Below are positions 10,757 to 50,542 of a stretch of 64,000 nt of DNA, piece after piece (position 1 is the first letter of the stretch; every line of letters starts with the position of its first letter). The position numbers and the translations under genes were made by a program. The notes beneath the pieces are model-generated. The model did no database searches. It was not told where the DNA came from and worked only from the letters and a program-made list of their open reading frames with translations. The stretch is from IMG/VR virus record IMGVR_UViG_3300020468_000003, positions 41,045-105,044 of that record; one strand, 5' to 3'. Source of the stretch: a virus.

Positions 10757-10816
10757 ATTATAAACAATTTTTTGTCTCTTTTGGGAAAATAGTGGACAGT
10801 TTGTTCGACTGTCCAC
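10757..10816 (-). promoter_or_regulatory. Inverted repeat plus -10 cassette (copy B)
   Basis: The perfect 9-base arms GTGGACAGT (10792-10800) and ACTGTCCAC (10808-10816) lie just after the stop of the 96-aa gene. Minus-strand TATAAT (10762-10757) follows, then GTATAAAC. The start codon of the next gene is 38 bases beyond the -10. This copy has the best inverted repeat in the set. Confidence 0.65.
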
Positions 10817-10823
10817 TACTGGT

Positions 10824-11114
10824 CTATCTTAGGTGTGCGTAGTTTCCTGCGGGATGTGGATTTGATTTAGTGTAACCAAATGAACTGAAAAACTGATCAA
10901 GTAGTTTGTAATCTAATTCCTGATTGAGTTCCCATTCCATTCTGCCATTCTTCTCAATCCTTTTACCAGAGTAAAGTTCAACTTTGGCGATTGCTTGTAC
11001 TCCCCATTCTTGAATCTCATCAACGAAAGTTGAGAAGTCTTCGCATAATTCTGCTACGTCGTTAAAGTTGTCTACTTCTCTGATTCTGTTGATTAGTCTT
11101 TCTGTTTGATTCAT
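10824..11114 (-). CDS. Small acidic protein of unknown function, 96 aa
   Basis: MNQTERLINRIREVDNFNDV opens a mainly helical 96-residue protein. A C-terminal QELDYKLLDQFFSSFGYTKS segment follows a charged stretch. An AAGGAGA ribosome site precedes the ATG and a -10 box (11148-11143) lies 29 bases upstream. It ends directly at the copy-B inverted repeat. Unknown function; probably an early protein. Confidence 0.7.
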   Translation of the reverse strand: MNQTERLINRIREVDNFNDVAELCEDFSTFVDEIQEWGVQAIAKVELYSGKRIEKNGRMEWELNQELDYKLLDQFFSSFGYTKSNPHPAGNYAHLR

Positions 11115-11142
11115 GGATGGATCTCCTTTTGTTTATACTACT

Positions 11143-11198
11143 ATTATAAACACTATTCCCCCAGAAAAGGGGGTTTAGTGTGCACTTTGTTAACTGTC
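11143..11198 (-). promoter_or_regulatory. Stop-codon repeat, terminator hairpin and promoter (copy C)
   Basis: The minus strand carries GTAGACAGTTAACAAAGTGCAC across the stop of the 60-aa gene. A CCCCC/GGGGG hairpin (11173-11158) follows, then TATAAT (11148-11143) and GTATAAACAAAAGGAG before the next gene. The order repeat-hairpin-(-10)-ribosome site matches the other copies. Confidence 0.7.
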
Positions 11199-11372
11199 TA
11201 CTTGAGAGCATGCATAATCCCAAGGTGCGGGTTCGCATATTTTTTCAATCAGTGTGTCAAAGTCATTTTCTGATTCTGCGTCAACCCATCCATTCTCTAT
11301 AAAAAATTGTCCCATTTTTACGAGGACTGATTCCTCTGCTTCAGTCATTGTCAATTCACGTTCCCATTTCAT
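11190..11372 (-). CDS. Small acidic protein, 60 aa
   Basis: The frame begins MKWERELTMTEAEESVLVKMG and ends SQVDS, the last residues being encoded by the stop-codon repeat cassette itself. It overlaps the upstream 54-aa gene by 3 bases (ATGA). Mostly helical and acidic; no family recognised. Confidence 0.7.
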   Translation of the reverse strand: MKWERELTMTEAEESVLVKMGQFFIENGWVDAESENDFDTLIEKICEPAPWDYACSQVDS

Positions 11373-11533
11373 GATTCAATCTCCAAAGAATTAATAAAGT
11401 TTGTACAATAACGATTAAATCGTGTAAGAGATTCAAACGGTATTTGGTCGTCTTCTTCACCGACGTAGTAAAAAAGTTTGTTAATGTCGCTCTGAAAAGT
11501 CTCCAGAGCGATTTCGTTTTTAGTGTAACTCAT
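11369..11533 (-). CDS. Small protein of unknown function, 54 aa
   Basis: ATG at 11533 overlaps the upstream TGA, and its own TGA overlaps the next ATG, so it is the middle gene of three coupled genes. The product starts MSYTKNEIALETFQSD and is predicted helical, with FESLTRFNRYCTNFINSL near the end. No family recognised. Confidence 0.65.
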   Translation of the reverse strand: MSYTKNEIALETFQSDINKLFYYVGEEDDQIPFESLTRFNRYCTNFINSLEIES

Positions 11534-11748
11534 ACCAGTGAATCCAGTCTGGACTGTGGAATTTCTTTTCCATCTCTAGCACCCCACTTGTTGATATGGC
11601 GTGAAGTTGTTACTGACCAAAACTGCTCTGTTTTTACGAATCCTTCACCGAAGATGTAAGCAGCAACAGGTGTGCGGTATGAAAACAAAATTCTTGCTTC
11701 TTTTGTTTCAACCTCGGTCATGTTTGATGCGATTGGTGTGAGTTGCAT
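11530..11748 (-). CDS. Small protein of unknown function, 72 aa
   Basis: First of three ATGA-coupled genes. A strong AAAAGGAG site precedes the ATG, and the -10 box of cassette D lies 27 bases upstream. The sequence MQLTPIASNMTEVETKEARILFSYRTPVAAYI suggests a beta-rich fold. The segment HINKWGARDGKEIPQSRLDSL recalls short conserved phage proteins of unknown function; no function assigned. Confidence 0.7.
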   Translation of the reverse strand: MQLTPIASNMTEVETKEARILFSYRTPVAAYIFGEGFVKTEQFWSVTTSRHINKWGARDGKEIPQSRLDSLV

Positions 11749-11774
11749 TGATGCTCCTTTTTGTGTATATGTTT

Positions 11775-11832
11775 ATTATAATAGAAAACCCCCAGTGAAT
11801 GGGGGTTGAGTGGACACTTATTTAACTGTCTA
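11775..11832 (-). promoter_or_regulatory. Stop-codon repeat, terminator hairpin and promoter (copy D)
   Basis: Minus-strand GACAGTTAAATAAGTGTCCACT (11829-11809) is followed by a CCCCC/GGGGG hairpin (11805-11789), TTTTC, TATAAT (11780-11775) and ATACACAAAAAGGAG. This is the clearest example of the complete cassette. Confidence 0.75.
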
Positions 11833-11988
11833 CTTGAGACCTGCTAATAATTCATCATTCTTTCTTCTGAGTTCTTTTAACTCCGCACGATTAAAACGAC
11901 GATAATCAATTTCGGTTGCAATTGCCATGCCTACCGTATATAATGCATAGCAGCCGCCAACTAATATTAAAAGTTCAATTCCTGTCAT
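11830..11988 (-). CDS. Single-pass membrane peptide, 52 aa
   Basis: The start at 11988 was chosen because AAGGAGG lies at the right distance; the longer in-frame extension to 12060 overlaps two other genes. The product begins MTGIELLILVGGCYALYTVG, an N-terminal hydrophobic segment of about 20 residues. A positively charged tail (EIDYRRFNRAELKELRRK) follows, probably cytoplasmic and helical. Role unknown; it could act at the host membrane. Confidence 0.7.
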   Translation of the reverse strand: MTGIELLILVGGCYALYTVGMAIATEIDYRRFNRAELKELRRKNDELLAGLK

Positions 11989-12070
11989 TTTTGGGTTCCT
12001 CCTTGGGAAGTTGTTGTTGTTTGTAATTTTTAAGAAGTTCTGCGTAAACTTCTGGATCAAGCGGTTGCAT
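11975..12070 (-). CDS. Very small bridging protein, 31 aa
   Basis: ATG at 12070 overlaps the end of the upstream gene by 14 bases, and the frame ends 14 bases inside the next gene, so it links the two. The product is MQPLDPEVYAELLKNYKQQQ plus a short charged tail. Length and overlap make it plausible but not certain; it may serve mainly for translational coupling. Confidence 0.5.
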   Translation of the reverse strand: MQPLDPEVYAELLKNYKQQQLPKEEPKNDRN

Positions 12071-12341
12071 AAGACCTCCCGAATCTTTCGGCATAATATC
12101 CGATATTTACATAGTCCCTTTTAAGGGTGCATATCTGGGTAATGTCTGCCAGTGCTAAAAGATGGTCGGGTGTGTAAACTGATGGATCGTCCCATTCAGA
12201 AACCGCAACTGCATTTTCAACGTCCATAGTTGTACGTCCGAGTTCGTCCGTAACTGCGGGACAACTCATAAGAAGTCCATCTTCAGCAATCCAGAATCCC
12301 ATTCCGAAAGAGTGTGAGTAATGAATTTCAGGTTTTGGCAT
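12057..12341 (-). CDS. Small protein of unknown function, 94 aa
   Basis: The start at 12341 (MPKPEIHYSHSFGMGFWIAEDG) has GGAGG just upstream and lies 23 bases after the -10 of cassette E. The longer frame to 12383 would begin upstream of that -10 and so is rejected. The N-terminal part looks beta-stranded (FGMGFWIAEDGLLMSCPAV) with an acidic helix later. No family recognised. Confidence 0.65.
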   Translation of the reverse strand: MPKPEIHYSHSFGMGFWIAEDGLLMSCPAVTDELGRTTMDVENAVAVSEWDDPSVYTPDHLLALADITQICTLKRDYVNIGYYAERFGRSYATA

Positions 12342-12363
12342 TTGCCTCCGTGTGTATGTCTTA

Positions 12364-12425
12364 ATTATAGTACCCATTAACAACGAATGGGAAAGTAGTG
12401 GACACTTTAACCAACTGGCACAAAG
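12364..12425 (-). promoter_or_regulatory. Stop-codon repeat, hairpin and promoter (copy E)
   Basis: The minus strand carries GTGCCAGTTGGTTAAAGTGTCC over the stop of the 308-aa gene. A CCCATT/AATGGG hairpin (12391-12373) follows, then TATAAT (12369-12364) and ACATACACACGGAGG. The repeat is diverged (GCCAG for GACAG) but in the same position. Confidence 0.65.
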
Positions 12426-13333
12426 CGACCACTATTAAAATTTGCGTATGAGAAAATATGTCTATAAACTAATTTGTGCATACCGAACTTATTCGTCATT
12501 ACGAATCCTTCGCCTATGTGCTTGTCATAACCTAAGTATGCTTGAACTGGATCGCTGTGAGTCAATCTGCTCATAACGTCCGCTTTAGTTTCTTGAACTA
12601 ACTTCCAGTAGTTTATCAACCTTCCATGAATCCCGTAGTTAACGGGATCCACTTCTTTCCCTTCCCTATAGTCTTTATTTATTTGTTTCTTTAACTCTTT
12701 AGCGGTTTTATTATCTACGAACTGGATCCCCTTCGCCATATGTCTAATGAAATCAATAGACGGTTTTAAGTTAGATATTGGATCGTTTTCTCTCTCCTTG
12801 ACTTCTGCTCTGATGAATAAACAGTCGTCCATCTTTTCCCAGTTGTAATAATATGGAAAAGATTTCATAGGGTGTGCTTCAGCATTTGCAAGATTGTCTG
12901 TGCACTGTGTGGTGATGTATTGCGTGTGAGGTGCAATAATGATCTTTTGATCTACCACGTCAGGGAATTTATATGTTAAGGTATTAGGTTTGTATTCATC
13001 AGAACCACCAAAACCAATAAAGTCCCCCTGAAAAACCATATAACCTAGATGGTGTGGTATGTGGTCGAAACACGCATGAAGAATTTTTGCAACTTCTCCT
13101 GTGTGATTTGCGTCAATATCCTTGTGTGAGTAATTGATCTTGATTTTGATCTTGTTAAAGACGCTTTTAGTACCCACGAAAAATCTGTGAGTCTTTGGAT
13201 GATTACCCCATACAACTGCGGGTGCACCATCATATTTTAATGAGATGTTCCCACCACCAGTAAACCAATCTAGCACGGATAAATCCCCTGTTAGGATTGT
13301 GTCTTCTGGATGTTCTAGGTGTGTGTTTTTCAT
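12407..13333 (-). CDS. Nucleotidyltransferase/polynucleotide-ligase-like protein
   Basis: In this 308-residue protein, residues 31-38 (SLKYDGAP) fit ligase/capping-enzyme motif I (K-x-D-G, with Lys33 as the potential nucleotidyl-lysine). FQGDFIGF at 101-108 resembles motif III, and EGFVMTNKFGMHKLV at 275-289 resembles motifs IV and V (E-G-hydrophobic, K-hydrophobic). It could join, cap or nucleotidylate nucleic acid, or be an inactive relative. A -10 box lies only 7 bases before the ATG, so the message may be leaderless. The family call is inference from motif order. Confidence 0.6.
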   Translation of the reverse strand: MKNTHLEHPEDTILTGDLSVLDWFTGGGNISLKYDGAPAVVWGNHPKTHRFFVGTKSVFNKIKIKINYSHKDIDANHTGEVAKILHACFDHIPHHLGYMVFQGDFIGFGGSDEYKPNTLTYKFPDVVDQKIIIAPHTQYITTQCTDNLANAEAHPMKSFPYYYNWEKMDDCLFIRAEVKERENDPISNLKPSIDFIRHMAKGIQFVDNKTAKELKKQINKDYREGKEVDPVNYGIHGRLINYWKLVQETKADVMSRLTHSDPVQAYLGYDKHIGEGFVMTNKFGMHKLVYRHIFSYANFNSGRFVPVG

Positions 13334-13339
13334 ACCTTT

Positions 13340-13397
13340 ATTATAACGAATAAAAGACCCTCTGTGTAGAGGGTGTGTGACACTTAATTAACTGTCA
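13340..13397 (-). promoter_or_regulatory. Stop-codon repeat, hairpin and promoter (copy F)
   Basis: Minus-strand GACAGTTAATTAAGTGTCAC overlaps the stop of the 60-aa gene. A CCCTCT/AGAGGG hairpin (13373-13358) and TATAAT (13345-13340) follow. The start codon is only 7 bases beyond the -10, much closer than in other copies. Confidence 0.65.
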
Positions 13398-13570
13398 TAA
13401 TCCGAGCCATCATATTCGCCTTCATAGTTATCATCGTAAATACGAACGGCTAACTCCGCATCTTGGCTTAATTTAATCCCTGCTCTATCAAGTGCTTCCC
13501 AAATCTTGTTAGAAATGTGGCTGTGTTCGTCTTCGGGGATATGTTGAAAAAGGTTTAAGTAGTTTTCCAT
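13388..13570 (-). CDS. Small acidic protein, 60 aa
   Basis: Last gene of a five-gene coupled run; its ATG overlaps the upstream stop in a TAATG junction. MENYLNLFQHIPEDEHSHI is followed by helices and an Asp/Glu/Tyr-rich tail (YDDNYEGEYDGSDYDS). The tail is partly encoded by the cassette repeat. No family recognised. Confidence 0.65.
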   Translation of the reverse strand: MENYLNLFQHIPEDEHSHISNKIWEALDRAGIKLSQDAELAVRIYDDNYEGEYDGSDYDS

Positions 13571-13845
13571 TAGAATTGCTCCCTCCTATCGTGGATAAAT
13601 TCTTGCAATTCTTCATACGCACCTTCTTGATCTAATACCATAGGTGCAAGAAATTCATACAAGTTTTCATCATAATCATCAATCTCATCTCTGATTTCAT
13701 CCTCCGTGCATCTGTTCAATTCGGCAAGATAAGTTGTACGAATCCAGTCTGCCATTTGTTCGGTGTTCATATCGTTGATATAAAATTCAACGAATTCTTC
13801 CCTTAAGTCTTGGATTTGCTCTGCTGAAAATAATGATGTAATCAT
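13570..13845 (-). CDS. Small acidic paralogue-family protein, 91 aa
   Basis: This protein shares with its neighbours the pattern F-x-x-x-[YF]-[IV]-x-D-M-x-x-x-Q-[ML]-x-x-[WY]-[IV], here FVEFYINDMNTEQMADWIR. Highly acidic and predicted helical. It overlaps the upstream gene by 4 bases and the downstream gene by 1-3. Local duplication of a small early gene is likely; function unknown. Confidence 0.7.
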   Translation of the reverse strand: MITSLFSAEQIQDLREEFVEFYINDMNTEQMADWIRTTYLAELNRCTEDEIRDEIDDYDENLYEFLAPMVLDQEGAYEELQEFIHDRREQF

Positions 13846-14087
13846 AGTTCTAAAAGTTTTAAATTGAATGGTTTTAATTTATCATCGAAGAAATCTTCTC
13901 CTCCGAAATCTATCATTTCCCCGAATGCACCCTCTTGCCCATCAACAATTTTAATATTTTCAAGGTTGTGGTGTAGATTGTCTCTTACATATTCTCTGAG
14001 TTGATTAACTTCCATATCTTCTACGAAGTCGTTAACCCAACTACGAACCAACTCATCATATTTGGACTGTACCAGTTCTAACTTCAT
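13842..14087 (-). CDS. Small acidic paralogue-family protein, 81 aa
   Basis: WVNDFVEDMEVNQLREYVRDNLHHNL matches the shared motif of the 91-aa and 80-aa neighbours. The C-terminal half (GEMIDFGGEDFFDDKLKPF) differs. It overlaps both neighbours by 4 bases. Function unknown. Confidence 0.7.
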   Translation of the reverse strand: MKLELVQSKYDELVRSWVNDFVEDMEVNQLREYVRDNLHHNLENIKIVDGQEGAFGEMIDFGGEDFFDDKLKPFNLKLLEL

Positions 14088-14302
14088 GCTACCAACCCCT
14101 CTAGAACTAATTGTTGCTGTGGAATTTCTTCTTCTTTGATTTCTACAGTTTCATAATCGAATTCTTCCCAATCAAAATCATAGTAATCCCAACCATTTTC
14201 TGCTTCCTCTTTGGCTTCTTCAAGACTACTTGCCTTAACTGTAAAGTACTCCATCTTAGTACATTTACGAGTTACATAAAACTCATGTTCATAAGGTTTC
14301 AT
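14084..14302 (-). CDS. Small acidic protein, 72 aa
   Basis: MKPYEHEFYVTRKCTKMEYFTVKASSLEEAKEEAENG shows a strand-strand-helix arrangement common in small phage proteins (a 'VKASSLEEAKEEA' half-motif often follows two strands). An acidic Tyr/Trp-rich stretch follows. It overlaps the next gene by 4 bases. No specific family assigned. Confidence 0.7.
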   Translation of the reverse strand: MKPYEHEFYVTRKCTKMEYFTVKASSLEEAKEEAENGWDYYDFDWEEFDYETVEIKEEEIPQQQLVLEGLVA

Positions 14303-14445
14303 TAGAACTGCCTCCAGTGGTAAGAATTTTCTCCGTTAATCTGTTTGATTAACGCATCTGCCTTTGCCTGATCTTCTTTTAGGAAGTCGTCTGCAAATTT
14401 GATCAAGTCTAATAGTCCTTGAACATCTTTGTTTTTGTTGTCCAT
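14302..14445 (-). CDS. Small helical protein, 47 aa
   Basis: First gene of the five-gene unit: ATG at 14445, with AAGGGG upstream and the -10 of cassette G 25 bases away. MDNKNKDVQGLLDLIKFADDF is amphipathic helical. The stop overlaps the next start as TAATG. No family recognised. Confidence 0.65.
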   Translation of the reverse strand: MDNKNKDVQGLLDLIKFADDFLKEDQAKADALIKQINGENSYHWRQF

Positions 14446-14469
14446 GTAGAACCCCTTGTGTATGTCTTA

Positions 14470-14525
14470 ATTATAGTACCCATTAAATACGAATGGGAAA
14501 AAAGTGGACAGTTGTTAAACTGTCC
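14470..14525 (-). promoter_or_regulatory. Stop-codon repeat, hairpin and promoter (copy G)
   Basis: Near-perfect arms GGACAGTT (14506-14513) and AACTGTCC (14518-14525) straddle the stop of the 146-aa gene. A CCCATT/AATGGG hairpin (14497-14479), TATAAT (14475-14470) and ACATACACAAGGGG follow. Hairpin and -10 region are nearly identical to copy E, suggesting recent duplication. Confidence 0.7.
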
Positions 14526-14955
14526 TAGTTGTCTTTGGGATTTCTACGGGTTTCGTGTAGAATCCTGTAATCTTCCATGTCTCGTCGTCATGTGTGATGT
14601 CTGTTTCATACGCATGCCATTTACCTTTCAAGAAGATGTAAAGGAATTCGGAACCGCAGTCAATTTGTGCCAGTTCATCAAGATTTTTTGATAGGACTGG
14701 TCCCTCATCTTTCCCACCATAATATTCAACGTGACCTTCGCAATCCTCGAACTCTTCGGTTTCCTTGTTATACTTGCTTGTAGAAAAGCACGAAGACATA
14801 TTGCCACCGTCGATGAGTTCGCGAACTGTCTCATCTGTGTTGTAGTGCTCTTCAAGAGTTACACCCAACCATTCAGGATATCCATCCCAGTGATGATAAA
14901 CAGAAAGAATGGAATCATCTTGTAATACATAACCAATTCGTGAACGTGTTGACAT
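14515..14955 (-). CDS. Conserved 'MSTRSRIGY...HHWDGYP' phage protein
   Basis: The N-terminus MSTRSRIGYVLQDDSILSVY followed by HHWDGYPEWLGVTLEEHYN is a pattern I associate with small T4-like phage and bacterial proteins of unknown role. It continues with an acidic middle and a C-terminal beta region (FLYIFLKGKWHAYETDITHDD). Length is 146 residues. It is preceded by an unusual leader of about 145 bases after its -10 box. No enzymatic motif is visible. Confidence 0.75.
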   Translation of the reverse strand: MSTRSRIGYVLQDDSILSVYHHWDGYPEWLGVTLEEHYNTDETVRELIDGGNMSSCFSTSKYNKETEEFEDCEGHVEYYGGKDEGPVLSKNLDELAQIDCGSEFLYIFLKGKWHAYETDITHDDETWKITGFYTKPVEIPKTTRTV

Positions 14956-15100
14956 AATGTTTTTAAAAAATGGATTGTAGAGGTACTTGCACCAGAGTAA
15001 TTAACTACTGGGGTCGATCTCGACATTTCAAGAGTGGGACTAAGATGCATCTGCCCTGTTAAGGTGTCTCCCGCTTCACTATCTCTGCCCTCTACTCTTA
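14956..15100 (-). promoter_or_regulatory. Long untranslated leader before the 146-aa gene
   Basis: About 145 bases separate the -10 region of cassette H from the start codon at 14955, whereas other cassettes use 19-38. It contains a GTCGA/TCGAC inverted repeat (15012-15023). I see no open frame with a ribosome site and no tRNA arms. It could fold as a regulatory RNA leader; this is inference. Confidence 0.35.
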
Positions 15101-15101
15101 T

Positions 15102-15159
15102 ATAATAAACGATTTTGAGTCGTTTTCAATAAAAAGTGGACACTTATTTAACTGTCCAC
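15102..15159 (-). promoter_or_regulatory. Stop-codon repeat, hairpin and promoter (copy H)
   Basis: Arms GTGGACA (15136-15142) and TGTCCAC (15153-15159) straddle the stop of the 80-aa gene. An AAACGA/TCGTTT hairpin (15125-15107) and a TATTAT -10-like box (15107-15102) follow. The -10 overlaps the hairpin arm. Confidence 0.6.
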
Positions 15160-15390
15160 TCTTGATTTTTTGAAGTCGCATTTCATGTAGTCTTGGACTT
15201 CATCAATAACTTCACCGAAGTAATCACCCCAATAATCCTTCGCATCATTTAGAAATTCATCGTCAGTTTGACCATCAACATATTTGTCCATGTCGTTGTG
15301 AACATACTCAACTAAATCTTTAGTGTCCATGTTATCAACATATCTCTCAACAAAGAAAGATTTGAGCTCATTAATTAAGGCTTTGTCCAT
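15148..15390 (-). CDS. Small acidic paralogue-family protein, 80 aa
   Basis: The start at 15390 (MDKALINELKSFF) overlaps the upstream stop as TAATG; a longer extension runs through the upstream gene and is rejected. FFVERYVDNMDTKDLVEYVHNDM matches the motif of the proteins at 13570 and 13842. The C-terminus KKSRVDS includes residues encoded by the cassette repeat. Function unknown. Confidence 0.7.
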   Translation of the reverse strand: MDKALINELKSFFVERYVDNMDTKDLVEYVHNDMDKYVDGQTDDEFLNDAKDYWGDYFGEVIDEVQDYMKCDFKKSRVDS

Positions 15391-15539
15391 TATCCCATTT
15401 CCTCCAATATTTGCTGTGCACGAACTCCTGCAACATACTGAGCATCTTCGCAATGTGGATCTAATCCTGCTTCTTCAATCTGTAATAGTAGATCTTCAAA
15501 GATTCCTTCTAGTAGTTCTTCGTTTGCTAGGCAACTCAT
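15390..15539 (-). CDS. Small acidic helical protein, 49 aa
   Basis: The start at 15539 (MSCLANEELLEGIFEDLL) has AAAGGAGA upstream and lies 28 bases after a -10 box. A longer frame to 15608 would pass through the promoter and hairpin. Helical throughout, ending VAGVRAQQILEEMG. No family recognised. Confidence 0.7.
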   Translation of the reverse strand: MSCLANEELLEGIFEDLLLQIEEAGLDPHCEDAQYVAGVRAQQILEEMG

Positions 15540-15566
15540 TTTGATCTCCTTTGTTTGTATATTATT

Positions 15567-15622
15567 ATTATAAGTCCCCACTCTTACGAATGGGGATTTA
15601 GTGGACACTTTTTAAACTGTCC
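15567..15622 (-). promoter_or_regulatory. Stop-codon repeat, hairpin and promoter (copy I)
   Basis: Minus-strand GGACAGTTTAAAAAGTGTCCAC (15622-15601) is followed by a TCCCCA/TGGGGA hairpin (15596-15575), TATAAT (15572-15567) and ATACAAACAAAGGAG. Confidence 0.7.
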
Positions 15623-16086
15623 TATAAGTACCCTGCAGATTCACATCCTGGTTCATCATAGAACCACTGGATCGAAACTTTTTTATATTGTCGTTTCAGT
15701 TCAGAGGCAACGTCTTCGGGTGGAGCCCATGCTGTGTCGAAATGGATCTGGAAATAATCCTCTTCGTCGTCTCCCCATTCGACTGCATCCTTACGAATGT
15801 CCCATTTAGTTCCCCAGTTATGAACATTCCAGTCGTACCATCTGTCATCATTTTTTCCATCTGGGAAGTAATAGGATTCATAGATGAGTTTGCCATCCTT
15901 ATTAAATTCCTGCCTTAGAGATGGTAATTCACCTTTATCATTCGGCATTTTTTTCCAGTCTGGTGGTGGAATGATCTTGGCGAATGGATTGTCTTGAGAG
16001 AAAATTTCTCTGATCTCATTGATCTCTTGAACACTTTCTTCATCCCATCCAGATACTGTTACTCGGTTACTGCACCAATTTGGCAT
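15622..16086 (-). CDS. Api92/YubB-like (DUF1281-type) ferredoxin-fold protein
   Basis: MPNWCSNRVTVSG at the N-terminus, FAKIIPPP, WYDWNVHNWGTKWDIR, FDTAWAPPEDV and WFYDEPGCESAGY at the C-terminus are the ordered hallmarks of the Api92/DUF1281 family carried by plasmids, prophages and large phages. At 154 residues the length fits. The domain has a ferredoxin-like fold of unknown function. The start overlaps the upstream gene at 16086 (TAATG). Confidence 0.8.
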   Translation of the reverse strand: MPNWCSNRVTVSGWDEESVQEINEIREIFSQDNPFAKIIPPPDWKKMPNDKGELPSLRQEFNKDGKLIYESYYFPDGKNDDRWYDWNVHNWGTKWDIRKDAVEWGDDEEDYFQIHFDTAWAPPEDVASELKRQYKKVSIQWFYDEPGCESAGYL

Positions 16087-16316
16087 TAGTTTAACCTCCA
16101 GTCAATCTTAAGGTATTCTGGATCAGCATAGTTCATCAACTGTTCTGGTTCCATGTCGAATATGAATTCTTCCATGAAATATTGAACTGAGAAGTTCCCT
16201 AATTCTTCAGCACAACGAAAGACCATTCCGATCTGTTCATTGTTTAGACCTAGAACATCAATACAGTAAGAGATGTCCTTTTCAAGATCTGAAATTCTTT
16301 TGGAAGATTTTTTCAT
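16086..16316 (-). CDS. Small acidic protein with diverged paralogue motif, 76 aa
   Basis: A basic N-terminus (MKKSSKRISDLEKD) precedes helices. FMEEFIFDMEPEQLMNYADPEYL carries a version of the F-x-D-M-x-x-x-Q-L motif seen in the 80-91-aa neighbours. The -10 of cassette J is 26 bases upstream. Function unknown. Confidence 0.65.
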   Translation of the reverse strand: MKKSSKRISDLEKDISYCIDVLGLNNEQIGMVFRCAEELGNFSVQYFMEEFIFDMEPEQLMNYADPEYLKIDWRLN

Positions 16317-16341
16317 AAAAACCCTGTTTGTGTATGTTCTT

Positions 16342-16398
16342 ATTATAAAGGCAAAAGGGGGTCATGTAACCCCCTAGTGGACACTTTTTTAACTGTCT
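16342..16398 (-). promoter_or_regulatory. Stop-codon repeat, terminator hairpin and promoter (copy J)
   Basis: Minus-strand GTAGACAGTTAAAAAAGTGTCC is followed by an AGGGGGT/ACCCCCT hairpin (16375-16356), TTTTGCC, TATAAT (16347-16342) and ACATACACAAACAGGG. Confidence 0.7.
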
Positions 16399-16903
16399 AC
16401 CTTAAGTAAAGATATCCTCCTGCCCAATCTACGAAGTTTGGATCTAATAATTTTTGTAGATCCTTTGGTTCGCAAAATGAGAATCTAACGTGCTTTGTAT
16501 GCGGTGCCTTCCATGATGCGGGTTTGTATACGTTACCTAGGATCGATGGATCCTTTCCTACGAATGCATGAACGCTACCGTCGCGATATTCATTCCTATC
16601 TTGAAAAGTGTCGAACTCTTCTTGAATGATTTTGTAATACTTCCTGCCTACCTCATAACGAAATCTCATTAGATTCGCAGTCCCGTCTTTCATCGCGTCT
16701 AACTGTTGTTTCGCATAACTTGAAAGATCTTCGCGCTCTAACTCTAGATTTCTTGTTAAGGACCTCTTGTGGTAGATGCGATAATTCTCAGTAATTGCTC
16801 TACAATAATCTTTTATGTAAGATAAAAGAAACGTTTGATCCGTTTGCTTTACTGATTTTCCAATGATAAAATCATTTTTGGATCCAATTACTTGTTGCAT
16901 AAG
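16397..16903 (-). CDS. Conserved cyanophage protein of unknown function, 168 aa
   Basis: The start at 16903 (MQQVIGSKNDFIIGKSVKQTDQ) was chosen because a promoter cassette with TATACT lies at 16927-16922; an extension to 16984 would cross it. The protein is alpha/beta with a basic middle (RIYHKRSLTRNLELERED). A C-terminal KHVRFSFCEPKDLQKLLDP region follows. No catalytic motif recognised. Confidence 0.65.
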   Translation of the reverse strand, partial: LMQQVIGSKNDFIIGKSVKQTDQTFLLSYIKDYCRAITENYRIYHKRSLTRNLELEREDLSSYAKQQLDAMKDGTANLMRFRYEVGRKYYKIIQEEFDTFQDRNEYRDGSVHAFVGKDPSILGNVYKPASWKAPHTKHVRFSFCEPKDLQKLLDPNFVDWAGGYLYLR

Positions 16904-16921
16904 ATTTGTGTATGTAATACT

Positions 16922-16980
16922 AGTATAAAGTCCCCGCGCATGTAATGCTACGAAGGTTGTGCCACTATTTAAAGTGTCTA
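16922..16980 (-). promoter_or_regulatory. Diverged repeat/promoter cassette (copy K)
   Basis: The minus strand reads GTAGACACTTTAAATAGTGGCAC next to the stop of the 74-aa gene, then a GC-rich segment, TATACT (16927-16922) and ACATACACAAATC, 19 bases before the start at 16903. No strong hairpin is visible in this copy. Confidence 0.55.
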
Positions 16981-17202
16981 CCACATGTCATCTGGTGTGT
17001 CATATGATGTAAAATCAGTCAGCCGTTTTTCTTCTCCTGCTTCTAGAGGTACCGAGAAGTTAATTTCAAACTCGTCGCTGTAATCTTTATAGTTGGTGAT
17101 TTCCACGGGACATTCATTCAACCATTCTTGAAACATCTCATATTTTGTTTTACGTGGTTTCTTACGCATTTCGTCGTACATTGCCTGTTGATAAGTTTTC
17201 AT
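16978..17202 (-). CDS. Small protein of unknown function, 74 aa
   Basis: MKTYQQAMYDEMRKKPRKTKYEMFQEW forms a basic amphipathic helix. An acidic beta-like half follows (SDEFEINFSVPLEAGEEKRLTDF). It overlaps the upstream gene by 4 bases. No family recognised. Confidence 0.65.
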   Translation of the reverse strand: MKTYQQAMYDEMRKKPRKTKYEMFQEWLNECPVEITNYKDYSDEFEINFSVPLEAGEEKRLTDFTSYDTPDDMW

Positions 17203-17405
17203 TTAAGTTGTACCTCGTAGTCAATAAATTTGATGCACCATCCTGCTGATGCTGTGATCTCTTCAATAAGATCGTCTTCATCATCCGCGTCCCAAACACC
17301 GAGTGCGAGATCCCGCAATTCGATTTCCTCATCGAATGTGAGTTTGAATCCGTTGGCATAATCGTCATCGTAATCAAACTCAATTTCTGTTACGTTAAAT
17401 TTCAT
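17199..17405 (-). CDS. Small very acidic protein, 68 aa
   Basis: MKFNVTEIEFDYDDDYANGFKLTFDEE shows alternating strand residues and strong Asp/Glu content, with a WDADDEDDLIEEI helix. It overlaps both neighbours by 4 bases. The negative surface recalls DNA-mimic proteins, but this is only a charge argument. Confidence 0.65.
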   Translation of the reverse strand: MKFNVTEIEFDYDDDYANGFKLTFDEEIELRDLALGVWDADDEDDLIEEITASAGWCIKFIDYEVQLK

Positions 17406-17539
17406 CTCGTAATGATTTCCTGTAACGATGCAAGATCATCCCAAGTTTCATCATCTTCTTGAATGAATGGACAGTCCATTGCTCTGTCGAGTGCAGTACT
17501 GAAGCGATCTAGTTGCTCATCAGTAAGTTTGAAGTTCAT
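17402..17539 (-). CDS. Small acidic helical protein, 45 aa
   Basis: The first gene of this unit starts with ATG at 17539, with CGGAGA upstream and the -10 of cassette L 23 bases away. The product is MNFKLTDEQLDRFSTALDRAM plus a helical tail, and the frame ends in an ATGA junction. No family recognised. Confidence 0.65.
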   Translation of the reverse strand: MNFKLTDEQLDRFSTALDRAMDCPFIQEDDETWDDLASLQEIITR

Positions 17540-17561
17540 AGAAATCTCCGTGTATAAACTC

Positions 17562-17612
17562 ATTATAGACAAAAAAATCCCCCTTGCGGGGGACTAGTGG
17601 ACAGTTTCTAGA
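17562..17612 (-). promoter_or_regulatory. Stop-codon repeat, terminator hairpin and promoter (copy L)
   Basis: The stop of the 81-aa gene is followed on the minus strand by AAACTGTCCACT, a CCCCC/GGGGG hairpin (17592-17579) with TTTTTTTG, then TATAAT (17567-17562) and TATACACGGAGA. The T run makes this a convincing terminator-promoter pair. Confidence 0.7.
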
Positions 17613-17853
17613 CTGGCATAGGCAATCCATAACTGATATGATACATATCCATCATATAATCTCTTACTCTCTCCCGATCAAGGGAATCTCCATCTCCCCA
17701 CGTAACCTTAAATTCAGCAAGCGGGTCGCTGCAGTCATCAAGATATTTGAGCGTTGCATATGCGATTTGCTCTTTAGAGACGTTGAGGGGATACAACCCA
17801 CCTTGCCCGTAGAATGAAAACACATAATCGATGAACTCCTGAAAATTGTGCAT
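17608..17853 (-). CDS. Small protein of unknown function, 81 aa
   Basis: MHNFQEFIDYVFSFYGQGGLYPL opens an 81-residue protein with the helical segment VSKEQIAYATLKYLDDCSDP and a charged C-terminus. A -10-like TAAGAT (17882-17877) followed by ATACATACAAAAA lies 24 bases upstream. It is the first gene of the early-type block on this side of the repeat region. No family recognised. Confidence 0.65.
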   Translation of the reverse strand: MHNFQEFIDYVFSFYGQGGLYPLNVSKEQIAYATLKYLDDCSDPLAEFKVTWGDGDSLDRERVRDYMMDMYHISYGLPMPV

Positions 17854-17882: not shown

Positions 17883-17926
17883 TCAGTTCCTGTAGCAATT
17901 GGTCATACTATGTGACACTAATATTT

Positions 17927-18094
17927 CTGGCACACTGGCTGATGCATTCGAGCTCGATTTCTCTTATAATAAATTTATAAACAAAAAAAGAGCGGAAGTA
18001 CGCTCTCTAAAATCTTCGCCACTCCCCCTGCCTTATAATATCTCTGTGTTCCTTTCCTGATATCCAATTCTCGTACTGGCACACTCGCTGTTGC
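17927..18094. repeat. Imperfect 19-bp direct repeat in the gene-poor region
   Basis: CTGGCACACTGGCTGATGC (17927-17945) and CTGGCACACTCGCTGTTGC (18076-18094) match at 17 of 19 positions. The rest of 17883-18263 holds no supportable gene. It contains a terminator and two -10-like TATAAT strings. Confidence 0.6.
17981..18006 (-). terminator. Intrinsic terminator facing minus-strand transcription
   Basis: AGAGCG (17989-17994) and CGCTCT (18001-18006) form a perfect 6-bp stem with a 6-base loop. Read on the minus strand it is followed by seven T residues (17988-17982). It would stop transcription arriving from the 20-kb side before the early-type block. Confidence 0.7.
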
Positions 18095-26434: not shown

Positions 26435-26831
26435 AAAATGCCTCTAATCCAACTGGTTCTCCAAAACTATAATCATAAGTTAATGCATCATGACAAACAT
26501 AATGCGGATGATCAGGTTTTACACCTAATCTTTTACACAATTCAAGATGATTATCCTCCATGAGTTCTACTGCATACAACATATTGTTTAGTATGTGTTC
26601 CTCATCATGATACTGCAGCAATTTAGTTTTAAGAGTAACTAAAAAGTTACCACTACCTGCTGAATTATCTAGGAAAGTAGAATTAGGGTTCTTTTTTACA
26701 TCATCTGGTATATCATTTATCATTCTAGCACAAACATCCATAGGTGTAAACACTTCGCTAGTAGCATTTATCCTATCATCTGATCTTTCAATTACAGATC
26801 CTACACTCTTATTGTGGTCGTTTCTTTTCAT
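26427..26831 (-). CDS. SAM-binding half of a DNA adenine methylase (motifs X and I)
   Basis: SEVFTPMDVCARMI (residues 25-38) is motif X, and STFLDNSAGSGNFLVTL (51-67) is motif I of N6-adenine methylases. LYAVELMEDNHLELC resembles motif II. The catalytic NPPY motif is absent from its 134 residues but present in the adjacent upstream 1039-aa protein, whose gene it overlaps by 4 bases. The two probably assemble into one split methylase, with the order of halves reversed from the usual X-I-IV. Confidence 0.8.
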   Translation of the reverse strand: MKRNDHNKSVGSVIERSDDRINATSEVFTPMDVCARMINDIPDDVKKNPNSTFLDNSAGSGNFLVTLKTKLLQYHDEEHILNNMLYAVELMEDNHLELCKRLGVKPDHPHYVCHDALTYDYSFGEPVGLEAFYE

Positions 26832-29800
26832 AAAATATCAGGAATAGTTCTGAATAATTCTTTTGAATTAGTATTAACTATCCTATTCTTTAGAACCATT
26901 TGATGTACTTCATCAGATCTTAAATAATCTGCAAGTTTATTACTCTCCTCCTCAGAAGATGTTTTTATGATAACTGTAGATCCACTAATAGAATGATCGT
27001 AAGGTTTGATACGGATCTGTCCAAAACCTTGTCCACCGTATTTACTATTCATTACAACTCCATGTTGATTAATACAACAAGTATGCTGAGACTTATCAAC
27101 ATTAGTAACTTGCATCTCTCCATTTTTACCACCCATTGTAGTTATCATAGGATACTCTCCCTCAATCAATTGATTTAAGTTCAAATCTCCACGTTGATAG
27201 CGATGTCCCATATTGTTAGAAACATCTGAAACAAAATCTGGATTAGTAAATCTAATACAAGTATCATCAGTAAGTTGAATATTCTTTACTGTACCATCAA
27301 GATAAGTTAATTTTGTTAGTCCAGTGTATCCACGTTTCCATGTACAAATACATGTCTCTGTCATTGATATAGATGGAAATGTATCAGGAGATAATGCTTC
27401 AATAGAAACAATACCTGGTGTTGAAAACAAAGTTCTTCTAAACTTTGATGTGGATTTAGCAAAGTGTTTTGATCGAATTACTTCTGATACATAATCAGAT
27501 CTTTTCATTGCACTTAGATAAAAATGTGTATCTAAAGTTTTTGCACATCCACCTGTGGTTGCACCTGTTACTGTAGATGTATCTGTATATGGTGGATTAC
27601 CAACTGTAGCACTAAACTGCATTTTGTAATTACTAAGGTTGTCGGTTACATTAATTTTAGCATTAATCTGCTTTATTGCATAGCGATGAGTAGGATCGTT
27701 TTCCCACACCACTATGTCATCGGGTTCCCAAGATTTATTCTCTATTGCATATAAAGAATGAAGTCCAGAGGGATCTCCATGTATATACAACTTTTCAGTT
27801 GTATCCTTTTTTAAAGGAATCATCCTATCAAGAATATCTAATGAAAGTGTCTTTTGATTCTTTCTTGTTGTTGCAAGTTTCTGTAAGGTTCCACATTCAT
27901 CTTTAGACATAGAATGTTCAATATCTATGATTCCTTGATTAATTCTATTGATCCAAGATTTAGGTATAATCTTTTGTTCTAAACAAGCTTTGATAATACC
28001 AGTAGTGTCTCCTGTGTCATGTTCATAATATTTTGAACTAAGAATACTATCTACACTTTTAGGTGTGGATTTATTCTTTATCATATGGAAGATAACTAAT
28101 CCTATTCTCTCCATGTATGCTTGAATAGTTTCTGTTTTCTGTGCTATCTCAGACTTATCAAAATGTGTAGAAAATTTAGATGAACTGGTAAGTTTCTTAT
28201 TACTGTTTGCGTTAGCATTGTTTTCATTTACTGTAAAAGAACTCCATGAAGATAACTTTGCACTCTTCTGAAAATTATCAAATTCAATGTCTCCTAACTT
28301 AAGAAAATCTAATTGAGATACAATACCTGATATCAAAGATACTGCACTGTCTACATCATTAGATAGAATTTCGTTTAGACGTTCTGGTGTTACTTCTTCA
28401 AAATCAGAGAAGTATTCAAAGATAGGAACTAAATCAAGAAGTTCATATTCAGATTCTGTTAACTCATGATTCAAATCACATGCAGTAAAATACATGTTTC
28501 TGATTGTAGTAAAACAACGTTCTGGGCAAAAATCAATTACATCCCAAAAGTTTCTCTTTGTTGATCCACCACGGAAAGCAAACTGTGTCCATTGTTCTCT
28601 TGATGATCCTTCTGCACAATTCATAACAGTATCAATACCCTCTGCAGTTAGACCAAGAACATTTGCAGTTTTAGTTAAGATAACTGTAGATGTGTTAGTA
28701 TCAATATGTGATCTGATTGTCTCAGAATTTTCTCTAGTATCTGAAGTTACAACTAATGGTTTAAATCTTGTTGATTTAAAATAATCTACAAGTGCATGAC
28801 ATGATGCCATAGAAGGCAAAGTTATCATTACATGTCTACAGTTCTTTAGTATTCTTTTGTTATACTTTATTCCATCTTGAGTAAACACTTTACTCATAAA
28901 TTCATCAACTAATATTGGTTCAGCAAAATCATCCTCATCTTTGTTTACTCTAAAAATATTACCCATTGCATCAGGATCATCGCCATATAAGTCTTGATAT
29001 TTACTGGACTCATACTTTGCAAGAATCAATCTCATCTGTGGAGAATTTACATACTCCTTTATACCTTGCAATTTATACAATTGCTCCTCAAAATATGAAT
29101 ATACAAATCTAAATTTAGGAAAATCTTCTAAGATTTTATGTGCAGTTCCTGAGACATACAATACTTTTGTATCGAAGTGATCTCTAAGACTTATCCATTG
29201 ATCTCCCTCATATCCAAGATGTGCTTCATCGAATACTATTAGATCAATATTACAAGGTAGATTCTTATATCTGTTAGGAGCTTGAATAGTAGAATATAGA
29301 ACTATTTGTTTTTCAGTTCCCATCCAATACTCTATCTCATTCTTAAACTGATCTACTTCACCATCACGAATATCAATGAATATAATATTATCAAAGTTTT
29401 TAAACTGTTGGGAATCATCTCTCCATGATTGTTTAGGAGAATTTCTATATGAAACAACTAAGGATACCTTAACATTACTCTCTACAATAGAGGAAAGAAC
29501 CATTGTAGATTTACCTGCACGACACTTAGCAAATAACAAATACTCTTTCCATTCATCCCATGTTGAAGTTATCTCAGATACAAATTCTTTTTGGTGTTTG
29601 CGAAGTTTACGATATTCTTTTTCCTCTACATTATTTGTAAAAAACTCTTCTTCAATAAGATCCTTTACAACATCAATACTTAAACCATGACCATCTTCAA
29701 TTTTATAAGTCTCTCTACCAGTTTGTGTAATACCACGTTGTTTTTTTAACCAACTATGTATCTCATGATCTCTACCATCAAAATCTGTCCACCATCCTCT

Positions 29801-30058: not shown

Positions 30059-30112
30059 ATTATAGCATGAAAAAACCCCCTGTAAAGGGGGTTGTGACAG
30101 TTTCTAAACTGT
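30059..30112 (-). promoter_or_regulatory. Stop-codon repeat, terminator hairpin and promoter (copy M)
   Basis: ACAGTTT (30097-30103) and AAACTGT (30106-30112) are perfect arms at the stop of the 89-aa gene. An AACCCCC/GGGGGTT hairpin (30093-30074) with TTTTTTC follows, then TATAAT (30064-30059). The cassette recurs here 12 kb away from the main block. Confidence 0.7.
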
Positions 30113-30373
30113 TTTTCTTTTTCTCATCCTAGTGGTCATTTCAGTGTATTCTACAGGTGCCCACTCAACTTCCTTGGGTTTTGTTTTTCTTAGATTAGCA
30201 GTCTCTTTTTTAACAAAGGTAGAAGATTCTTCTTTAGTATTCTTTGCAAGAGATTGTCCAGAATTTAATTCCTTTGCAACTTCTGGTTCATCAAATTGTT
30301 TCAAATAACTTTTTCTGCTAAAAAGTTTTTTGGATTCTACAGCATCTTCAGAAGTTATTGGTTCATCAGTCAT
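30104..30373 (-). CDS. Small basic protein, 89 aa
   Basis: The start at 30373 (MTDEPITSEDAVESKKLFSRKS) overlaps the upstream stop by 8 bases; the longer extension lies in the upstream gene. The rest is polar and Lys-rich, ending RMRKRKTV, the last residues encoded by the cassette repeat. It is probably disordered. Function unknown. Confidence 0.65.
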   Translation of the reverse strand: MTDEPITSEDAVESKKLFSRKSYLKQFDEPEVAKELNSGQSLAKNTKEESSTFVKKETANLRKTKPKEVEWAPVEYTEMTTRMRKRKTV

Positions 30374-36600: not shown

Positions 36601-36657
36601 TATCCATTATAATGGATATTTTAATCTATTATGTCCATAATGGACACTTTGTAATCT
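36601..36657 (-). promoter_or_regulatory. Diverged cassette with palindromic -10 (copy N)
   Basis: TATCCATTATAATGGATA (36601-36618) is a perfect palindrome containing TATAAT, 27 bases before the 46-aa start. The methylase C-terminal codons carry the diverged repeat GTGACAGATTACAAAGTGTCC. Confidence 0.6.
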
Positions 36658-37709
36658 GTCACTCTTTTCTGTATTAGTTTACCATACTCTTCATTAAGTT
36701 CGCAACCTATGTAATCTCTACCTAATTGTTTTGCTACCATTCCAGTAGTACCTGATCCCATGAAAGGATCTAAAATTATATCTCCCTTTTCGCTCCCTGC
36801 TTTAATACATGGTTCAATTAATGCAGGTGGAAATACAGCAAAGTGTGCACCTTTATATGGTTTATTTGTTACTGACCAGACAGATCGTTTATTTTTTGTT
36901 GGATATGATTTTGTAAGTCCGCTATGTGGTTGGAGTCCTGTTCCTGTGTTATGGTATTTTCCGTTTGTTCTGTCTCTTGTTCCCCAATCTTTTGCGGGTT
37001 CTTTGATTGCTTCATTATCGTAGTGGTATTTTCTATTTTTACTAAACAAAAATATATATTCGTGTGCTTTAGTACACCTATCCCTTACACTTTCTGGCAT
37101 AGGATTAGGTTTATGCCAAATGATATCTTGTCTTAGATACCATCCATCTGCTCTCATTGCGAAGGCAAAGAGCCATGGGATTCCGATGAGGTCTTTTTCT
37201 TTAAGTCCATCGATTCTATTTCCTCTACGAGGACACACATCTGGTAAGTCTTGTTTTGAATTTGCAACAGTTTGTTTTGGAAGTCCTTGTCCTTTTCCAG
37301 GTCTGTAGTTATAGTAACTATCCCCAAGATTAACCCAACAAGTTCCATCATCTGTAAGCACATTGCGAACCTCCTTAAATACGTTTACTAATTGATCAAC
37401 ATATTCTTCTGGAGTCTCCTCCAATCCGATTTGATCATCTTGTCTTACTGCACCACATTTTGGACACACACTTTTGTATATGTAATCTCCAACACCACCC
37501 ATGATGTCAGCATTTTTATGACCAGTAATACAATTTGAACCTTGCTTACCTTTTTTTCTATGATCACAATTAGGATCTCCTCCTATCCAAGTAGCAGTTC
37601 CATAATCCCTGAGACCATAGTATGGTGGAGATGTTACACACATCCTTGCCTGTTCGTCAAATTGTTTGAGTGTCTCCCGACAATCTCCAAATAAAATTGT
37701 GTCTCTCAT
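36621..37709 (-). CDS. N4-cytosine/N6-adenine DNA methylase (SPPY class)
   Basis: TSPPYYGLRDYG at 26-37 holds the SPPY catalytic motif of beta-class methylases, which more often modify N4-cytosine. ILDPFMGSGTTGMVA near residue 320 is the SAM-binding motif I, in the reversed order typical of this class. The Cys/His run CDHRKKG...CPKCG is an unusual insertion, perhaps a zinc site. It has 362 residues. The start overlaps the stop of the upstream helicase gene by 4 bases. No partner restriction nuclease is visible beyond the helicase. Confidence 0.88.
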   Translation of the reverse strand: MRDTILFGDCRETLKQFDEQARMCVTSPPYYGLRDYGTATWIGGDPNCDHRKKGKQGSNCITGHKNADIMGGVGDYIYKSVCPKCGAVRQDDQIGLEETPEEYVDQLVNVFKEVRNVLTDDGTCWVNLGDSYYNYRPGKGQGLPKQTVANSKQDLPDVCPRRGNRIDGLKEKDLIGIPWLFAFAMRADGWYLRQDIIWHKPNPMPESVRDRCTKAHEYIFLFSKNRKYHYDNEAIKEPAKDWGTRDRTNGKYHNTGTGLQPHSGLTKSYPTKNKRSVWSVTNKPYKGAHFAVFPPALIEPCIKAGSEKGDIILDPFMGSGTTGMVAKQLGRDYIGCELNEEYGKLIQKRVTDYKVSIMDIID

Positions 37710-38911: not shown

Positions 38912-38968
38912 ATTATAGCAAACACAATGCCATTTTGCAAATCCATGTGCCAGTATCTTAACTGTCTT
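38912..38968 (-). promoter_or_regulatory. Stop-codon repeat and promoter (copy O)
   Basis: Minus-strand GACAGTTAAGATACTGGCAC overlaps the stop of the 106-aa gene. A weak GCAAA/TTTGC hairpin and TATAAT (38917-38912) follow, then GTATAACGAAACAAAG before the helicase start. Confidence 0.6.
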
Positions 38969-39278
38969 TGTCCATTTTATCAGAAATTTTTTTGAGTGCT
39001 TCTTCCCATCCATCTTTATCTTGAGACCATTTATTTAATGGGCAAGACTCTAATATAACTCTAGCTTTGGCAGGTATGAAACATCCACATTCTGCACACA
39101 TATCCTTTTTCTTTATCCACATCTCACATGATTTACAAATCTCATGTCTAACCTTATAGGTTTCATCAGATACAACTAAAGACTCAGGTCCATTCTTTTT
39201 AATATAGGTAATAATATCCCATGAAAAATTAGCAAAATTTTTCGTCTTCTCAATAAAAGATGGTTCGTCTTTTTCCAT
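38958..39278 (-). CDS. Small zinc-ribbon-like protein, 106 aa
   Basis: EICKSCEMWIKKKDMCAECGCFIPAKARV (about 47-75) has CxxC and CxxCGCF, a zinc-ribbon pattern. It sits within a charged protein that ends in MDKDS, part of the cassette repeat. Probably DNA- or RNA-binding. Unknown role. Confidence 0.75.
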   Translation of the reverse strand: MEKDEPSFIEKTKNFANFSWDIITYIKKNGPESLVVSDETYKVRHEICKSCEMWIKKKDMCAECGCFIPAKARVILESCPLNKWSQDKDGWEEALKKISDKMDKDS

Positions 39279-50534: not shown

Positions 50535-50542
50535 TATTTATG
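50535..50542 (-). promoter_or_regulatory. T4-like late promoter CATAAATA
   Basis: Minus-strand CATAAATA overlaps the last codons of the collagen-like gene and lies 39 bases before the start of the 180-aa gene at 50496. Confidence 0.55.

Follow-up and report, generated by a model that had tools for sequence, protein, structure and literature searches.

The element described here lies in a 64,000-nucleotide stretch (the window) that spans positions 41045–105044 of the 105,044-base IMG/VR contig IMGVR_UViG_3300020468_000003, which is related to T4-like cyanophages. The minus strand of the window displays 14 copies of a unit with a constant order: an inverted repeat (the dyad) with a stop codon, often a GC hairpin, then TATAAT, a ribosome site and an ATG. 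The end of the dyad and the -10 box are 27, 28 or 29 nucleotides (nt) apart at 14 of the 14 sites. On sequence evidence, we put a probability of roughly 0.85 on the proposal that every copy constitutes a full early-gene promoter with an upstream palindromic operator.

An imperfect palindrome recurs through the small-gene block

A prediction made earlier from the letters of the window (the original prediction) had proposed at least 14 minus-strand copies of a repeat recurring through a block of small genes, including copies at 30.1, 36.6 and 38.9 kb. All 14 are confirmed, and the ordered unit recurs through the block as described (Table 1). The description of the repeat needs one correction, as the entire repeat is an imperfect palindrome. 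The block bearing the dyads precedes homologues of gp25 and gp6.

Sites were scored by a weight matrix whose training set came from other contigs and excluded the close relative of the window. The 14 sites and a tentative plus-strand site at 17910 score 25.9–41.6 (32.3–33.1 for the three distant copies named above), while Markov shuffles of the 105-kb contig yield 0.1 sites above 16 with the same matrix. Outside the window, the remaining 41 kb of the contig revealed no site comparable to the window dyads. The bare 9-mer (34 versus 24.4 ± 4.9) and the bare 11-mer (31 versus 21.1 ± 4.9) are only marginally enriched. Such short words alone are weak evidence, and thus the significance belongs to the composite unit.

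More than 100 related contigs carry the repeat unit. Nearly all copies in the window fit the imperfect inverted repeat AGTRGACAGTT-N4-AASTGTCCACT, with a length of 24–26 letters. The dyad consensus is about TGTGNCAGTT-N4-AAGTGNCACA/CACT, and the flavour found in the window terminates in CCACT.

The dyad keeps a fixed distance to the -10 box

Scanning IMG/VR for the core repeat returned at least 119 stretches. Among the matches listed, a TATAAT-like box locates 27 or 28 nt past CCACT in 93 of 140, versus about 2 at a typical other offset. With the weight matrix and an offset left free between 8 and 55 nt, the best -10 box fell at 27–29 nt in 349 of approximately 378 placed cases. The exact dyad combined with TATAAT at the right spacing occurs in at least 120 IMG/VR stretches, versus 15 when the spacing is lengthened by 6 nt; shortening it by 6 nt gives 58 stretches, which mostly belong to a second promoter class and are not a clean control. 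Past the -10 box, an AT at 7–8 nt is conserved.

In this second class (class B) of the IMG/VR contigs, the dyad lies 26–27 nt before the -10 box, a TTGACT -35 box is present, and the promoter precedes one conserved 71-aa gene (phrog_552). We notice that the arms of these dyads are more often perfectly symmetric.

The arm letters point to recognition as DNA

At the variable arm position, the combinations that mispair as RNA (G..G and C..C) outnumber the pairing ones by 295 to 192 (Fisher P 2e-9). A second set, chosen without the CACT end, contains 135 mispairing and 29 pairing combinations. G..G and C..C represent one site read from either strand, so the operator appears to prefer one AAC half and one AAG half, a preference that would be a property of DNA recognition. 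Another arm position (A/C versus T/G) covaries in the pairing sense with an odds ratio of 2.9, as is expected for two like half-sites. Because the arm letters lack RNA-stem covariation, we read the dyad as a DNA operator phased to the promoter. On account of the mispairing letters, an RNA hairpin or terminator was rejected as the reading of the dyad, and in the intrinsic-terminator test the dyad itself was not a GC stem with a T-run at all copies.

The spacer hairpin is optional and the stop codon falls within the dyad

A GC hairpin occupies 211 of 787 spacers (27%), compared with 26 ± 4 (3%) in shuffled spacers. In the window, the hairpin is clear at 9 of the 14 sites, and a T-run follows in about five. 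The terminator is therefore a real but optional insert within the spacer. The idea of the original prediction that the element ends one unit and starts the next holds where a spacer hairpin is present.

Among 69 cases from the contigs, 54 have the upstream gene's stop codon located at the dyad. At 12 of the 14 window sites, the stop starts 1–14 nt inside the dyad and in different frames, in agreement with the earlier view of a DNA element at gene ends rather than a coding motif. The overlap arises because the genes are packed tightly.

The stop codons within the dyad, its capacity for weak folding and the spacer hairpins could all be taken as signs of a terminator or stop cassette, in which an RNA hairpin or stop-codon element ends genes and the nearby promoter is incidental. 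However, the arm letters mispair as RNA above chance, 73% of the sites have no GC hairpin, and termination does not need a fixed distance between dyad and -10 box. We consider such a cassette highly improbable. The element is not primarily a stop-codon or terminator repeat; its invariant relation is the 27–29 nt from palindrome to -10 box.

T4-like cyanophages carry the dyad in the block preceding gp25

In T4-like cyanophages, the dyads concentrate in the small-gene block that precedes gp25. Syn9 has approximately 13 dyad promoter sites, most of them in its small-gene block at 43–53 kb, versus 0.05–0.25 in shuffles. S-TIM4 has approximately 14 such sites in 16 kb, and several precede gp25 in P-HM2. 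The dyad is also enriched in S-PM2, P-SSM2, P-SSM4, S-CRM01, S-SSM7 and S-RSM4. In the window, Syn9 and S-TIM4, a dyad promoter precedes the helicase gene, which is annotated in the latter two.

No enrichment was found in T4, KVP40, P-SSP7 and Ma-LMM01. In HTVC008M, a T4-like pelagiphage of the Kyanoviridae that infects SAR11, we counted 5 dyads versus 4 in the control. Cyanophages of Leptolyngbya, Anabaena and Nostoc, together with Me-ZS1 and P-SS2, showed no clear enrichment.

Contigs binned as a Microbacteriaceae metagenome-assembled genome carry the same dyads, several with a -10 box at the same distance; they are probably mis-binned freshwater cyanophage.

The same dyad marks the early-gene block of a Microcystis siphophage

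Three contigs rich in exact dyads have a small-gene block in common, and the longest is a relative of the Microcystis siphophage Mic1 (portal 67% identical). Mic1 itself contains 44 dyads with at most 1 mismatch to a slightly relaxed core, 44 of 44 at 56.8–72.1 kb. With a stricter core, 32 dyads are found at up to 2 mismatches and the reversed pattern gives 0. By RNA-seq, the early genes of Mic1 are gp49–gp73, with gp69–gp73 among those peaking at 0.5 h (PMC11237433). These genes span 52.6–71.9 kb, and the dyad-bearing block of Mic1 is its published early-gene block. Many of the dyads stand in tandem, 56–58 bp apart, upstream of the immediate-early genes (66.2–72.1 kb).

In Mic1, the core is followed by the -10 box at a distance of 31–33 nt in 14 sites and of 42 nt in 6 sites, and in the marine phages this distance is 31–33 nt. 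The 42-nt spacing is one helical turn beyond 31–33 nt; other contigs show 40 nt. Mic1 was found by searching with the marine pattern, by which the sequence match was selected; that search did not select for a cyanobacterial host, for dyads confined to the early block or for equal spacing.

Confident protein matches between Mic1 and Syn9 comprise only PhoH, NrdA and DNA methylase. The comparison revealed no recognisable transcription factor in common, and a phage regulator belonging to both was sought there and not found.

Copying of cassettes and collinearity

The cassettes at 12342–12407 and 14448–14513 are 90% identical over 60 nt and lie between unrelated genes, which would be a recent copy event. 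A stretch before the dyad is common to the sites at 11.2 and 11.8 kb. Meanwhile, a close relative contig is collinear with the window across all cassettes, with no shuffling at the dyads. The earlier notion of a spreading cassette finds support in one duplication and one shared stretch, but not in this relative.

The dyad might also be a site for site-specific recombination or shuffling that moves small genes between phages, in the manner of promoter early stem-loop (PeSL) cassettes or pdif modules. The near-whole duplication would suit this idea, as would the variation of the small-gene block among phages. Yet the relative is collinear across every cassette, a recombination site requires no fixed distance to a -10 box, and the dyad recurs at the same spacing in an unrelated siphophage. 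We regard a mobile cassette as improbable.

Proposed mechanism and the protein that may read the dyad

We propose that a dimeric DNA-binding protein would recognise the pseudo-palindrome, centred near -53. Bound just upstream of the -35 region, it would recruit or orient RNA polymerase at a TATAAT whose -35 box is weak or missing, and transcription would start near the conserved AT. The stop codon of the tightly packed preceding gene falls within the operator. Roughly one spacer in four, 27–29 nt long, also accommodates an intrinsic terminator, which would end the preceding transcript just before the next one starts. The dyad, its phasing, the conserved AT, the optional hairpin, the stop overlap and the distribution are read from the letters themselves. 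Binding by a protein, activation rather than repression, early timing in the window phage and a host origin of the binding protein are what we infer.

An activator site is probable since the distance to the -10 box is fixed and shifts by about one turn where it changes. The operator could instead serve a repressor, from phage or host, by which early genes are turned off later in infection, the promoter itself being ordinary. Mic1 early genes drop sharply past their peak (PMC11237433), -35-like hexamers are enriched in the spacers, and good -35 boxes occur in the class B and Mic1-type promoters. However, a fixed distance, or one helical turn more as in the 42 nt of Mic1 and the 40 nt of other contigs, is typical of activators; the dyad is clear of the -10 box and the start site, and most class A promoters have no recognisable -35 box. 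Repression as the general role seems unlikely to us.

Several observations weigh against our proposal of an activated early promoter read by a host protein. A -35-like hexamer occurs in 186 of 549 spacers (about one third) versus 57 in shuffled ones, so that a complete lack of the -35 box, which we had considered, is weakened, and some sites may be ordinary promoters plus an added operator. In an alternative arrangement, the dyad is 4–6 nt closer and a good TTGACT -35 box is present, and relatives of Mic1 show spacings of 26 and 37 nt; the same dyad may repress in such settings. Early timing in the marine phages would follow from gene position. In 101 Prochlorococcus-family genomes, 35 loose dyad matches compare with approximately 80 for the reversed control, and no regulon emerged. 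Across the cyanobacterial class, 15 matches versus 1 in the control are confined to 12 of 194 genomes. A host factor governing a large regulon is not easily reconciled with the absence of such a regulon from host chromosomes.

A host regulon motif was accordingly dropped as a candidate, there being no enrichment in Prochlorococcus-related genomes and only sparse matches across cyanobacteria. An apparent dyad upstream of yiaAB in two genomes is not conserved. Exact dyads were also observed in the chromosomes of Prochloron, Paraprochloron and Moorena, two in identical 30-nt contexts and one adjoining an IS607-like gene; these may be transposon ends.

The factor that binds the dyad could be encoded by the phage or carried in the virion, a variant compatible with the promoter proposal. 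It would explain why cyanobacterial chromosomes have no regulon bearing the dyad and why most other cyanophages tested lack it. On the other hand, the three proteins named above are the only confident sequence matches between the two phage groups that have this dyad and spacing in common, the earliest genes need the factor prior to phage protein synthesis, and the SAR11-infecting T4-like relative is without the dyad. We hold a phage factor to be possible but rather doubtful. That Mic1 and Syn9 have the same dyad and no common regulator points to a host factor, which we favour, and the missing host regulon leaves real doubt.

Our broadest proposal is tentative, and we give it slightly less than an even chance. 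Both the T4-like phages that infect marine Synechococcus and Prochlorococcus and the Mic1-like siphophages of freshwater Microcystis would express early genes via the same 24-bp asymmetric operator (AAC/AAG arms) at the same -10 distance, read by a cyanobacterial host protein with almost no chromosomal sites of its own.

Relation to known elements

Doron et al. (2016, ISME J 10:1437) reportedly found a novel element, conserved across the T4-like cyanophages, that controls the early genes of Syn9 and of P-TIM40; siphophages, the spacer terminator, the stop-codon overlap and the half-site rule are said not to be covered there. The dyad promoter is probably this element. Syn9, one of the phages of that study, carries the clustered dyad promoters described above.

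In the middle promoters of T4 (MotA box plus AsiA), an activator site likewise replaces the -35 box at a fixed distance from TATAAT. The MotA box, however, is one short site at about -30, whereas the cyanophage element is a 24–26-bp dyad near -53. Of the T4 factors, Alt, ModA, MotA and AsiA are missing from marine cyanophages (PMC2984593).

The original prediction knew of no named element like this, which is probably wrong. The closest named architecture is that of PeSL cassettes (Arbiol 2010; Comeau 2014; discussed in PMC4503421), in which a stem-loop and an early promoter sit between small genes where T4-type phage genomes vary. The window cassettes pair a promoter with a hairpin at 9 of 14 sites. 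What stays constant in them is a dyad of the protein-binding type, held at a fixed distance, while the stem-loop is optional and there is little shuffling; modular shuffling as in PeSL was not seen at the dyads in the one collinear relative contig. Intergenic repeats of halovirus HF2 hold promoter motifs (PMC8707807), but this is an archaeal virus with another sequence, and its abstract mentions no dyad operator.

What is new here is the dyad anatomy, with its asymmetric half-site rule, a terminator placed inside the spacer and the stop-codon overlap. Also new are the finding that neither the SAR11 relative nor host chromosomes have the element and its correspondence with the early block of Mic1, an unrelated phage.

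Features of the window

Table 1. Predicted elements of the repeat unit in the window (ORF, open reading frame; all assignments of operators, promoters and terminators are putative)
Feature	Position	Strand	Remarks
Dyad operator, 5-nt centre, AGTGGACAGTC-GAACA-AACTGTCCACT	10791..10817	-	Score 36.4; stop TAG of the upstream ORF lies 9 nt ahead
-10 box TATAAT	10757..10762	-	28 nt past dyad 10791..10817
Dyad operator	11177..11202	-	Contains stop TAA of ORF 11190-11372
GC hairpin in spacer, no T-run	11158..11173	-	-11.0 kcal/mol
-10 box TATAAT	11143..11148	-	Would serve ORF 10824-11114
Dyad operator	11809..11834	-	Contains stop TAG at 11830
Intrinsic terminator in spacer	11787..11807	-	-13.1 kcal/mol
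-10 box TATAAT	11775..11780	-	Would serve ORF 11530-11748
Dyad operator, 5-nt centre	12397..12423	-	Contains stop TAA of ORF 12407-13333
Spacer hairpin, no T-run	12373..12391	-	-5.4 kcal/mol
-10 box TATAAT	12364..12369	-	In cassette 90% identical (60 nt) to 14.5 kb cassette
Dyad operator	13375..13400	-	Contains stop TAA of ORF 13388-13570
Intrinsic terminator in spacer	13357..13374	-	-9.7 kcal/mol
-10 box TATAAT	13340..13345	-	Would serve ORF 12407-13333
Dyad operator	14503..14528	-	Contains stop TAA of ORF 14515-14955
Spacer hairpin, no T-run	14479..14497	-	-5.4 kcal/mol
-10 box TATAAT	14470..14475	-	
Dyad operator	15135..15160	-	Contains stop TAA of ORF ending 15148; GC hairpin absent
-10 box TATTAT	15102..15107	-	
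Dyad operator	15600..15625	-	Contains stop TAG of ORF 15622-16086; score 41.6
GC hairpin in spacer, no T-run	15575..15596	-	-15.6 kcal/mol
-10 box TATAAT	15567..15572	-	
Dyad operator	16376..16401	-	Contains stop TAG of ORF 16397-16984; score 40.9
Intrinsic terminator in spacer	16356..16375	-	-13.1 kcal/mol
-10 box TATAAT	16342..16347	-	Would serve ORF 16086-16316
Dyad operator	16957..16982	-	Contains stop TAG of ORF 16978-17202; no clear terminator; score 28.0
-10 box TATACT	16922..16927	-	True start predicted ATG 16900
Dyad operator	17596..17621	-	Contains stop TAG of ORF 17608-17853; score 37.0
Intrinsic terminator in spacer	17576..17595	-	-13.9 kcal/mol
-10 box TATAAT	17562..17567	-	
Tentative dyad promoter	17910..17935, -10 at 17965-17970	+	Score 25.9; retained in relative contig
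Dyad operator	30092..30117	-	Precedes 1039-aa methyltransferase-containing ORF 26828-29947; score 32.3
Intrinsic terminator in spacer	30076..30091	-	-10.4 kcal/mol
-10 box TATAAT	30059..30064	-	
Dyad operator	36639..36664	-	3' end of methyltransferase ORF 36621-37709; score 32.5
-10 box TATAAT	36606..36611	-	
Dyad operator	38945..38970	-	Precedes helicase, true start probably ATG 38890; score 33.1
-10 box TATAAT	38912..38917	-	

Rfam gave no match above the gathering score in window 9–40 kb. Past the promoter at 15160, a leader of approximately 150 nt (14955–15101, minus strand) has a GUAGAGG/CCUCUAC closing stem. As a riboswitch this leader was rejected, its fold being no better than shuffles and without an Rfam match. 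Elsewhere in the window, nine-nt periodic coding repeats at 51024–52046 lie within an 879-aa ORF (50538–53177), probably a fibre protein.

Significance

Cyanophages shape the productivity of oceans and lakes, and their takeover of host transcription during the opening minutes is not understood. One operator in two unrelated phage groups would provide a bait to fish out the protein that reads it. It would also permit early genes of unknown function to be called in metagenomes from sequence, and it may offer a tight, infection-triggered promoter for cyanobacteria.

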